This document shows, piece after piece, positions 36,279 to 39,567 of a stretch of DNA of 64,000 nucleotides; position 1 is the stretch's first letter, and every line of letters starts with the position of its first letter. The stretch is from the NCBI RefSeq assembly GCF_003044565.1, contig NZ_POXG01000004.1, positions 1-64,000 on the forward strand, written 5' to 3'. Position numbers and translations under genes: made by a program. The notes below the pieces were generated by a model, which was not told where the DNA came from, searched no databases, and was given only the letters and a program-made list of their open reading frames with translations. This DNA comes from Neisseria sicca (lineage in GTDB: Bacteria; Pseudomonadota; Gammaproteobacteria; Burkholderiales; Neisseriaceae).

Positions 36279-37013
36279 ATGAAAAAAGCTTTATCAGTTA
36301 TTTCCGTAGGTTTTTTATCTCTGTCTCTGCTTGCTGCCTGTAATGGTGGAGAAAGTGAAACTCAAAAAGAGTTGGCTGCATTGAAAGAACAATTGGCGCA
36401 GCAACAAAAGCAACAAGCTGAACGCGAAAATCAAGAACAAGAACACCGGAAACAAATTGAGCAACAGCAAAGAGAAGACGAACTCTATCAAAAAGCCTAC
36501 CAAGATGCCCAAGAAGACTTACAGATGAAACAAATGCTGGAAGAAGAGAAAAAACAGGAAGAGGCAAAGAAAAAACAGGCTGCTGAGGAACGTAAACGCG
36601 AAGAAGCTAAAAAGAAACAAGCTTTAGAAGAGGAACCTAAGCAAAAAGAAGAGGCCAGAATAAAAAAAGAAGAACCCAGAATTAGACAAGAAGAATCCCC
36701 AAAAGCTACTGCAAAACCGGCTGCTTCACAACAAGCGTCCAAAGTTACCGAAAAACTCGTTCGTTACCCTGCTTTTGTGATTTCGGAATCTGGTAGCGGT
36801 TCGTTAAATCTTAGAGGAGGACCGTCTATTTCAGCAGTTTCTGTTACCCAATTGAAAGACGGTCAGCAACTTCAAGTGGTGGCTGAAACCAACGCCTGTA
36901 CCAATGCCAACGGTGGCTGCTGGGTTAAAGTTCAAGTCGGCGGATTGACTGGTTATGTGTCTAATGCCTACCTGCAAAAAGGTCATGTACGAGATAGCGC
37001 TTATGCATATTAA
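36279..37013 (+). CDS. Lipoprotein with long charged coiled coil and SH3 domain
   Basis: 244 residues. Signal peptide with lipobox LAAC (Cys at residue 21). Residues about 30-150 are an extremely Glu/Lys/Gln-rich helix (KEQLAQQQKQQAERENQEQ; runs of EEAKKKQ), followed by a short Ala/Ser linker and a C-terminal bacterial SH3-like domain (LNLRGGPSISAVSVTQLKDG; GCWVKVQVGGLTGYVSNAYL). This suggests an envelope spacer that reaches peptidoglycan through the SH3 domain. GAGAG lies 8 bases upstream. A truncated copy of its coiled coil lies at 37774. Confidence 0.83.
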   Translation: MKKALSVISVGFLSLSLLAACNGGESETQKELAALKEQLAQQQKQQAERENQEQEHRKQIEQQQREDELYQKAYQDAQEDLQMKQMLEEEKKQEEAKKKQAAEERKREEAKKKQALEEEPKQKEEARIKKEEPRIRQEESPKATAKPAASQQASKVTEKLVRYPAFVISESGSGSLNLRGGPSISAVSVTQLKDGQQLQVVAETNACTNANGGCWVKVQVGGLTGYVSNAYLQKGHVRDSAYAY

Positions 37014-37155
37014 TATCGGATAGATTTGATTGGTGACTTTCTGTATCAACTAGAATAGAAATGATGGGAAAGTGAAAGAATATTTGGGGCTGTTCTAAAT
37101 TATTTTAGGATGAAGTCCTTTCAATAATCTATCCAATTCCGACTGTAAAAAAGTC

Positions 37156-37188
37156 AAAAGGTCGTCTGAAATTTCAGACGACCTTTTT
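37156..37188. terminator. Compact DUS-pair hairpin
   Basis: AAAAGGTCGTCTGAAATTTCAGACGACCTTTTT, two uptake words back to back with almost no loop. An identical hairpin is at 37987. Confidence 0.75.
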
Positions 37189-37196
37189 AACGTTTT

Positions 37197-37269
37197 GAGA
37201 CCTTTGCAAAATTCCCCAAAATCCCCACCAAGACATTTAGGGGATTTTGGGGAATTTTGCAAAGGTTTC
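37197..37269. mobile_element. MITE-like palindrome with IS5/IS1106-type ends
   Basis: About 73 bp. GAGACCTTTGCAAAATTCCCC at the left and its inverted copy GGGGAATTTTGCAAAGGTTTC at the right; the inner bases AAAATCCCC / GGGGATTTT extend the stem to about 30 bp around a 13-bp centre. The end sequence resembles, from memory, termini of neisserial IS5-family elements (IS1106-like). No coding capacity. Direct repeats at the ends are not clear. Confidence 0.65.
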
Positions 37270-37321
37270 GATATATTTGGTTGTTGCACAAGAAAGGTTA
37301 GATGCTAAAAACACAAGCGAA

Positions 37322-37358
37322 AAAGACCGCACCTTATAAAAAGTGCGGTCTTTTTTTG
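37322..37358 (-). terminator. Terminator containing a Haemophilus-type uptake word
   Basis: Stem AAAGACCGCACCTT / AAGTGCGGTCTTT with T runs, positioned 32 bp beyond the stop of the minus-strand gene at 37390. The right arm has AAGTGCGGT (37341-37349), the 9-base uptake core of Haemophilus influenzae and relatives. The left arm has its complement with one extra base. All other hairpins in this window with uptake words use the neisserial one. Confidence 0.75.
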
Positions 37359-37389
37359 TAATGTTTTGATAGCGTGGTTTCAAACCCCG

Positions 37390-37773
37390 TTATTGGATGA
37401 GTCCTTCATTCCATAATGCGATAACCACATCAAGTTGGCTATTATGTTTCTTTTCTTCTCCAATGATTTTTTGAATTTCTGCCCAAAGTTCAGCTTTTTT
37501 ATTTGCCCAAGACATATCTTTTTTTAATAAATGGATGGCAAGAATTGCATATTCTGCATTTTTAGATTCTTTCTCTTGTGGTGTTGGAATAGAAATTCCT
37601 TTTATTTTTCCCGCGTAGCACAGCCCGAAAAAGGCATTTTTAGGACATCCTTTCACTCTAGCTGAATAACTGTTAGTAAACTCTTGAACTGCTCCCGTCC
37701 ATGCTTTTTTAATATCGTGTGTATAAGCGAATAGCTCTACGGCTTTTACAGCTGTTTTTCCATATAAATTCAT
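37390..37773 (-). CDS. Small soluble protein, probably acquired; function unknown
   Basis: 127 residues, no signal peptide. It reads MNLYGKTAVKAVELFAYTHD near the start, KGCPKNAFFGLCYAGKIKGI in the middle and a helical C-terminus. The CPKNAFFGLC motif resembles a small conserved family of unknown function that I recall only as a DUF (DUF6979-like); this is not firm. The gene is AT-rich, and its terminator carries a Haemophilus uptake word. Its 5' end abuts the truncated lipoprotein copy at 37774 exactly, so it seems to have entered there and removed that copy's promoter and signal peptide. Confidence 0.7.
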   Translation of the reverse strand: MNLYGKTAVKAVELFAYTHDIKKAWTGAVQEFTNSYSARVKGCPKNAFFGLCYAGKIKGISIPTPQEKESKNAEYAILAIHLLKKDMSWANKKAELWAEIQKIIGEEKKHNSQLDVVIALWNEGLIQ

Positions 37774-37965
37774 ATGTTCAACTCACGCAAAGCGCGGATT
37801 TTAGCATTGGCAGAACAGCAAAAACAACAAATCGCCCGAGAAAATCAAGAGCAGAAACATCGTAAACGGCTCGAGCAACAAGAGCGTGAGACCGCGCTTT
37901 ATGAAAAGGCATGCCAGAATGCGCAAGAAGACTTGAATATGTTCGTGAAATGTTGGACTCAATAA
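37774..37965 (+). pseudogene. Truncated copy of the coiled-coil lipoprotein
   Basis: Reads AEQQKQQIARENQEQKHRKR then LEQQERETALYEKACQNAQE, aligning with about residues 36-85 of the protein at 36279. The signal peptide and lipobox are absent on the left, and on the right the frame is lost after DLNM, with a stop nine codons later; the SH3 domain is missing. A compact DUS hairpin like the one after the intact gene follows. It is a decayed tandem duplicate, not a functional gene. Confidence 0.8.
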
Positions 37966-37986: not shown

Positions 37987-38020
37987 AAAAAAGGTCGTCT
38001 GAAATTTCAGACGACCTTTT
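37987..38020. terminator. Compact DUS-pair hairpin, sstT terminator
   Basis: AAAAGGTCGTCTGAAATTTCAGACGACCTTTTG, 26 bp beyond the sstT stop on the minus strand; same form as at 37156. Confidence 0.78.
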
Positions 38021-38045
38021 GACTTTTTGCGAAACAACCGGCTCT

Positions 38046-39269
38046 TTAACCTTTACGGCGGCTGCCTAAGTCGGCGGCGGCGGTAAAGAGTACGTCGGTG
38101 GAGGAGTTGAGGGCGGTTTCGGCGGAGTCTTGGATAACGCCGATAATCATGCCGACGCCGACGACGCGCATGGCGAAGTCGTTGTCGATGCCCAAGAGGC
38201 TGCAGGCGACGGGGATCAGCAGCAGCGAGCCGCCGGCAACGCCGGATGCGCCGCATGCGCCGACGGTGGCGACGAGGCTCAGGAGCAGGGCGGTGGGGTA
38301 ATCGACGACGATGCCTTTGGTGTAGGCGGCCGCCATGGCTAAGACGGTGATGGTAATCGCCGCGCCTGCCATGTTGATGGTTGCGCCCAGCGGGATGGAG
38401 ACGGAGTAGGTGTCTTCATGCAAGCCGAGTTTTTTTGCCAATGCCATGTTGACGGGGATGTTGGCGGCGGAGGAGCGGGTGAAGAAGGCGTAGAGTCCGC
38501 TTTCGCGCAGGCAGGTGAAGACCAGTCCGTAGGGGTTTTTGCGGGTTTGCGACCAGACGATGAGCGGGTTTACGACGAGGGCGATGAATGCCATGCTGCC
38601 GAGCAGGACTGCCAGCAGGCGTCCGTAACTGAGGAAGGCGGCAAAGCCGGTTTCGGCGACGGTTTGGGAGACCAGTCCGAAAATGCCCAAGGGGGCGAAG
38701 CGGATAACCCATTGTACGACGGTGGTCACGGCTTCGGAGAGGTCGGAGACGACTTGGCGGGTGGTGTCGGAGCCGTGGTGGCGCAATGCGGAGCCTAAAA
38801 CCAATGCCCATGCGAGAATGCCGATGTAGTTGGCTTGTGCGATGGCGTTAATCGGATTGGACACGAGCTTCATCAAAAGTTCTTTGAGGACTTGGACGAT
38901 GCCGGAGGGTGGTGCGAGGGTGGAGGTGGCTACGTCTTTAAACACCAGTGCGGTCGGGAATGCCATACTGGCGGCAACGGCGACTGCGGCGGCGGCAAAT
39001 GTGCCAATAAGATACAGAATAATGATGGGTTTGATTTTGGCTTCGCCGCCTTTGCGGTATTGCACCAGCGCGGCGGTCACTAAGACAAACACCAATACGG
39101 GGGCGACGGCTTTCAATGCGCCGACGAACAATTCGCCGAGCAGCCCGACGTTCATGCCTGCTTTCGGGGAGATGGTACCGACCAATACGCCCAACATTAA
39201 ACCGATGATGATTTGCGGTACGAGTCCGATACGGTTGACTGCGTTCAGCAGTGGATTACCACTTGCCAT
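38046..39269 (-). CDS. sstT: Serine/threonine:sodium symporter SstT
   Basis: 407 residues of the dicarboxylate/amino acid:cation symporter (DAACS) fold: helices from about residue 12 onward, the serine-rich re-entrant loop ([20 protein letters not shown]) and the substrate helix [21 protein letters not shown], then [19 protein letters not shown] and the terminal [17 protein letters not shown]. It imports serine and threonine with sodium. The start at 39269 follows AGAGGAT; 19 further upstream codons in the open frame lack support. Confidence 0.95.
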
Positions 39270-39567
39270 GATACATCCTCTTACTTTATGTGTTAAGAAA
39301 CGTTGCATTTTAAAAGAAAATATCAATTATTGTGCAGGTTTACATATTGAATTGATTATCGTGGCGCAAAATGCTTGATTTTTTGGAGAATTGGGCAGTT
39401 TGTGCCATATTTTTCGGTTTGAAAGGAGTTAATGTGTTTGACTTCTGTGGTGCAGAGGCAGGTGCATCCGCCTTTTCAGACGACCCCTCCGCCTTGGGCG
39501 GGTTTTAAACCCGATTGAAAATAATGGTAGAATTTAAAACTCTTCTGTCGTTGAAACATTTTTTGCC

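Follow-up and report, generated by a model that had tools for sequence, protein, structure and literature searches.

The end of an ftsX gene, a terminator carrying a Haemophilus-type uptake word and a convergent gene of the DUF6979 family lie side by side in a variable locus of Neisseria sicca, within the 64,000-nucleotide stretch of DNA analysed here (the window). Sequence comparison makes it highly likely that this segment is a fragment of a Pasteurellaceae chromosome that was joined to a cassette in a Neisseria of the mucDUS type. The features of the locus are collected in Table 1.

Table 1. Features at the locus, with positions in the window
Feature	Position	Strand	Remarks
Intact lipoprotein gene, coiled coil and SH3_3 domain	36279–37013	+	Left neighbour; 99% identical in G028
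Left mucDUS-type (AGGTCGTCTGAA) inverted-pair terminator	37148–37188		41 bp recurring exactly, inverted, at 37988–38028
MITE-like 73-bp element	37197–37269		Inverted arms of 30 bp (97% complementary); many Neisseria-genus genomes have matches
Last 33 bp of Pasteurellaceae-type ftsX	37269–37301	+	RYIWLLHKKG-stop, RYIRLLDKKG-stop in G463; decayed tail
Terminator with AAGTGCGGT (Hin-type uptake word)	37320–37355	-	One-base variant in other arm; 16-pair stem, T tail
DUF6979 gene (PF22399)	37390–37773	-	Intact ORF, 127 aa, 34.9% G+C
Start of XRE-type helix-turn-helix gene, 28-bp remnant	37775–37802	-	27/28 bases as in G031
Lipoprotein fragment, both ends cut	37803–37965	+	Similar over 37807–37941
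Right mucDUS-type inverted-pair terminator	37988–38028		Adjoins symporter gene
Sodium:dicarboxylate symporter (SstT-like) gene	38046–39326	-	Right neighbour

The ftsX tail and its match to genus g309

The DNA from 37270 to 37785 was searched against 140 genomes, one per species, of the family of G331, which was treated as Pasteurellaceae because G331 holds 379 + 389 copies of an extended uptake-word pattern. The best match was found in G463 (91% identity over 88 bp, E 1.1e-28), followed by four genomes of the same genus, here g309 (G464, G466, G467 and G468, 84–87%, E 4.9e-28 to 1.0e-22), and these five align over 87–103 bp, at 84–91% identity, to the end of ftsX and the adjoining terminator. 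Two more g309 genomes match at 71–76% (G462, 76%; G465, about 72%), and the remaining two of the nine only weakly (G460 and G461, best E 1.4e-4 and 6.6e-6), their ftsX loci lying outside the set of seven compared.

The pairwise alignment with G463 starts at 37269 and is identical at 57 of its first 60 bases, and at 48 of the 51 placed before the stem. The counterpart gene in G463 encodes FtsX (Pfam FtsX_ECD and FtsX), and the same C-terminal motif is present in all seven g309 genomes fetched of the nine in the search. The similarity to g309 stops near 37367, 23 bp short of the stop codon of the DUF6979 gene, and on the sequence the border between the ftsX-terminator DNA and the DNA of the gene cannot be placed. 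Among the matches listed for the 46 genomes of the genus Neisseria (own genome included), the best non-self one covers the terminator only (E 1.2e-5) and none spans the ftsX tail.

Genus g309 is of the Hin type, with 20–29 copies of AAGTGCGGT per 20 kb in each of the seven genomes and 0–1 of the reversed word; from its uptake-word type and G+C content it is presumably Aggregatibacter, an oral genus. The seven loci (L127–L133) share one layout, in which ftsX is followed by a spacer, an uptake-word terminator and then a gene facing ftsX. The gene placed in this last slot is of four kinds: DNA alkylation repair in G463 and G465, cation efflux in G464, G466 and G467, DeoR-like in G468 and HAD-like in G462 (assigned with Pfam for one alkylation-repair and one cation-efflux gene, the others by reading), and the slot thus forms a small hotspot across the common terminator. 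The DUF6979 gene occupies the same ftsX-facing position in the window, where it would be a fifth kind. The distance from the last codon of the facing gene to one fixed codon of ftsX is 98–197 bp in g309 and, by reading, about 127 bp in the window.

The DUF6979 gene and its distribution

A first-pass annotation of this DNA had pointed out a small AT-rich gene on the opposite strand, and this gene is indeed intact and poor in G+C (34.9%, compared with 50.1% for the whole window). Its product matches the Pfam profile PF22399 over residues 1–127 of 127 (141.9 bits, cut-off 27) and also phrog_5039 (E 4.6e-23), being an ordinary full-length member of the family with no deviation seen. The AlphaFold model consists of eight helices (pLDDT 95). 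A Foldseek search of the PDB and BFVD gave it no match with an E of 0.001 or below, and it never reached Z 5 in a comparison with 254 chains; a sequence search of the PDB returned a single row, at E 0.48. When the first half of the family profile is aligned against the second, they match over 48 columns (hhalign P 5.4e-5; reversed control 0.27), which suggests that the protein is built of two copies of a helical unit of about 60 residues that would have arisen by internal duplication.

No match to the gene was obtained with the NCBIfam and PADLOC profiles, and the text string "DUF6979" returned nothing from open-licence papers. Around DUF6979 loci elsewhere, five of ten hand-chosen neighbour proteins (nine loci, no control) belong to families also seen in defence systems, according to Pfam and PADLOC: AbiV, a type I methylase, a PDC-S06 ATPase and two Sir2-like proteins, of which Sir2 may be housekeeping. 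As a guess, the protein may be a phage- or defence-linked accessory protein, the defence neighbours serving as a lead only. The codon-usage score of the gene (+0.117) lies just above the maximum of 40 mechanically called ORFs of the window (+0.113) and falls among the scores spanned by 117 g309 ORFs. This fit to g309 is weak, as the DUF6979 gene of the Neisseria-genus genome G006 has a still higher score (+0.146).

Expression of the gene is doubtful from its surroundings. A promoter scan of the kilobase around it gave one site, on the opposite strand, where 2.1 were expected by chance, and since the XRE-derived sequence starts one base before the start codon, the native 5' flank is gone and the native promoter appears to have been lost.

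Among 80 relatives, counting the own genome, a search detected the gene in six, each of them one of the 46 Neisseria-genus genomes, and the five other copies are 42–54% identical to that of the window. In a sample of the class it was seen in 1 of 369 genomes, the own one. It was detected in none of the 140 genomes of the Pasteurellaceae-type family, in a search with one genome per species, in which accessory genes can be missed, and with no positive control of its own, although the same query did match the Neisseria copies at 42–54%. In the genome_contigs collection the single protein retrieved nothing as a query, whereas a pattern scan built from alignment A1 brought up 34 relatives; going by their titles, many belong to Bacillota and Bacteroidota and none to Pasteurellaceae. 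The best partial match is from Algibacter (53% over residues 24–127). Six Escherichia phage records carry the family at 31% identity, just after Rz in the one inspected, and one match was found among plasmids (Deinococcus). In viral_contigs a first search gave no match and a later one three, and the stretches examined around these three contain no AAGTGCGGT, ACAAGCGGT or GCCGTCTGAA.

This distribution bears on the proposal, made in the first-pass annotation, that the gene came from Pasteurellaceae together with its own terminator. The terminator and the ftsX tail speak strongly for such a transfer; for the gene itself the evidence is indirect, namely its position and the convergent layout, and its best full-length relatives among the 80 genomes are three Neisseria genes (53–54%) that by reading end in inverted DUS pairs of Neisseria. 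Of the protein and its flanking DNA, for both of which a search of Pasteurellaceae genomes had been suggested, the flank found relatives there and the protein did not. It is conceivable, then, that only the ftsX tail and the terminator are of Pasteurellaceae origin and that the DUF6979 gene had a source of its own, another Neisseria or a phage, with the fusion taking place in Neisseria. The failure to find the gene in the 140 genomes, its presence in five other Neisseria-genus genomes and its occurrence in phages, once just after Rz, are all in keeping with such a course. The Neisseria copies are nevertheless rather distant, and the two whose neighbours were scanned adjoin other genes (ribonucleotide reductase in one case, a Mur-ligase-type gene in the other). 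The gene also sits, at a like spacing, in what is the variable slot of g309, facing ftsX across this very terminator. A separate origin of the gene is therefore unlikely, and common descent of ftsX tail, terminator and gene from one Pasteurellaceae chromosome is preferred, the donor of the gene being deduced from the layout because the gene was found in none of the 140 genomes of the family.

The insertion site

The locus lies between a DUF218 gene and the SstT-like symporter gene and shows three arrangements in four genomes, one in the window, one in G028 and one in G010 and G031. The sister genome G028, a relative of the kind proposed at first pass for an alignment of the locus, presents the empty site: the left lipoprotein gene (99% identical), a single DUS terminator and the symporter gene, with neither the insert nor a second lipoprotein. 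In the window there are two DUS terminators and the insert is placed between them. In G010 and G031, an XRE gene and lipoproteins lie between DUS pairs at the same locus (L048 8983–10800 and L049 5608–7929, respectively, in these two sister genomes), and the lipoprotein in G031 matches the TbpB and FHBP families. Elsewhere in the genus the locus is not kept: in 38 further genomes, a stretch of mostly 7 kb on the corresponding flank of the symporter gene gave no match to the XRE gene, the lipoprotein or DUF6979. A DUF218 relative is on that side in 3 of the 38, and the gene pair is near each other in three at most. These 38 are the 46 genomes minus the four close ones treated apart, two with no symporter match and two in which the contig ends there.

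A closer look at the right part of the insert revealed a mosaic of remnants. Between the DUF6979 gene and the lipoprotein piece, which had been described as abutting base to base, there are about 28 bp from the beginning of a helix-turn-helix gene of the XRE type, matching the locus of G031 (E 9e-7), where, as in G010, the full XRE gene is intact at the same place. The lipoprotein piece, previously taken for one copy of a duplicated gene into which the insertion had occurred, lacks both ends and shares no more than 71% protein identity (45 aa) and 70% DNA identity with its neighbour. These identities, together with the XRE fragment lying between, rule out a recent lipoprotein duplication, and the empty site of G028 lacks a second lipoprotein. 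The insert is flanked by a DUS terminator on either side and does not lie inside a lipoprotein pair.

The MITE-like element ends at 37269, where the ftsX remnant begins. This shared boundary would fit with the block having been brought in by a transposable element, either the MITE itself (37197–37269) or a parent insertion sequence. However, the far side of the block showed no further copy of the element, there is no transposase-sized ORF in the insert, and the repeats that actually bracket the insert are the DUS terminators, all of which makes a transposon-borne arrival very improbable.

The uptake word in the terminator

The terminator, towards which both the ftsX remnant and the DUF6979 gene run, is a hairpin with a fold z of -5.6 (37355–37320; none of 200 shuffles was as good) in which AAGTGCGGT occupies positions 37341–37349 of the stem, just past the DUF6979 stop codon. 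The Haemophilus uptake core reported at first pass in this stem, with a near complement opposite, is confirmed, the other arm being one base off. Read on the minus strand, the differing base still forms a G-U pair, whereas the plus-strand hairpin has a C-A mismatch there, and the hairpin is thus better suited to the DUF6979 transcript. Uptake words acting as terminators are established in both Neisseria and Pasteurellaceae, according to the portion of PMC1852404 consulted.

The caution, given with the original observation, that one such 9-mer may be due to chance was justified: the window holds two copies of AAGTGCGGT against 0.56 expected, at least two are reached in 12 of 100 shuffles, and the 2.78-Mb genome has 19, with 28 of the reversed word. 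The 9-mer by itself is no more than chance, and its weight derives from its placement in a terminator and from the adjoining ftsX tail. The reading that the word is fortuitous, in a normal Neisseria terminator beside a native accessory gene, agrees with this lack of enrichment in window and genome, but it is scarcely credible and was dropped on finding the ftsX tail, which largely refutes it, as the homology runs about 50 bp past the hairpin into g309 ftsX coding sequence and no other Neisseria-genus genome covers the ftsX part among the matches listed.

The uptake word of the genome itself, AGGTCGTCTGAA, is present in 67 copies in the window. It is read as the AG-mucDUS of N. mucosa, N. sicca and N. 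macacae on the basis of parts of PMC3630211, a text search of which did not return the 12-mer itself.

Proposed course of events

The arrangement could have arisen in three steps. A Pasteurellaceae fragment would have entered first, from a donor closest to g309 and presumably by transformation, bringing the 3' end of ftsX, an uptake-word terminator working in both directions and, convergent to ftsX, the DUF6979 gene. It would then have been fused by illegitimate recombination to the local cassette of XRE and lipoprotein genes, possibly in two steps. In the simplest account, the hybrid would finally have been set beside an arrangement of the G028 type by homologous recombination across the DUS-terminator repeats. 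This order of events, like the joint travel of gene and terminator, is inferred.

Uptake probably did not proceed via the uptake word, since in the sections of PMC3630211 available DNA with the USS gave no significant transformation of N. meningitidis and DNA binding by N. mucosa was independent of the DUS. Tentatively, DUS terminators might also act as recombination handles: identical palindromes at the ends of cassettes could allow foreign DNA without a DUS, once joined to a cassette, to stack and spread as a DUS-bracketed module, and the locus would be a snapshot of such a process. This is possible rather than likely.

Relation to known systems

Minimal mobile elements of Neisseria, as defined in the part of PMC3082526 seen, resemble the locus in that related genomes hold differing whole-gene cassettes between one pair of conserved genes. 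They differ in that the present locus was found in four genomes only, is bracketed by DUS terminators and has partly decayed cassettes. The second copy of the DUS terminator is no more than a hint of incorporation by homologous recombination in the flanking genes, as holds for those elements.

The transfer of sodC from Haemophilus to Neisseria is a known case (PMC3088665, in the extract consulted, citing Kroll et al. 1998, PNAS 95:12381). Both there and here, Pasteurellaceae chromosomal DNA in Neisseria is betrayed by an uptake-word terminator; unlike the sodC case, the segment of the window is nearest to g309, includes a piece of the core gene ftsX and has DUF6979 as its passenger. No report of the present locus was noticed in the open-licence literature when looked up via ftsX or DUF6979. 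The segment very probably came from a Haemophilus-related neighbour and adds a clear case to a kind of gene exchange that is rare but already known, that between N. meningitidis and H. influenzae being called rare in the excerpts of PMC3630211.

Uptake words are a supposed barrier between Neisseria and Pasteurellaceae. Counting the sodC case described below, the present segment is the second of Pasteurellaceae type in one commensal genome, and the ftsX scrap, which points to the source locus, provides an exact marker for studying the frequency and the route of such crossings.

In the same genome, sodC (Cu,Zn superoxide dismutase) is followed by an inverted AAAGTGCGGTTAAAA pair, also written AAAGTGCGGT (G000:C3:219226–219265; L045 2139–2770), which constitutes a second Pasteurellaceae-type terminator. 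The presence of sodC in this mucDUS-type genome contradicts the statement, in the passage of PMC3088665 available, that sodC is encountered in no Neisseria except N. meningitidis. By reading, the same kind of terminator lies beside an apparent sodC end in G010, G031 and G008. Another Neisseria-genus genome, G026, has an ACCGCAC/GTGCGGT hairpin resembling an uptake-word terminator (L155, about 1519–1538), possibly marking a further import.
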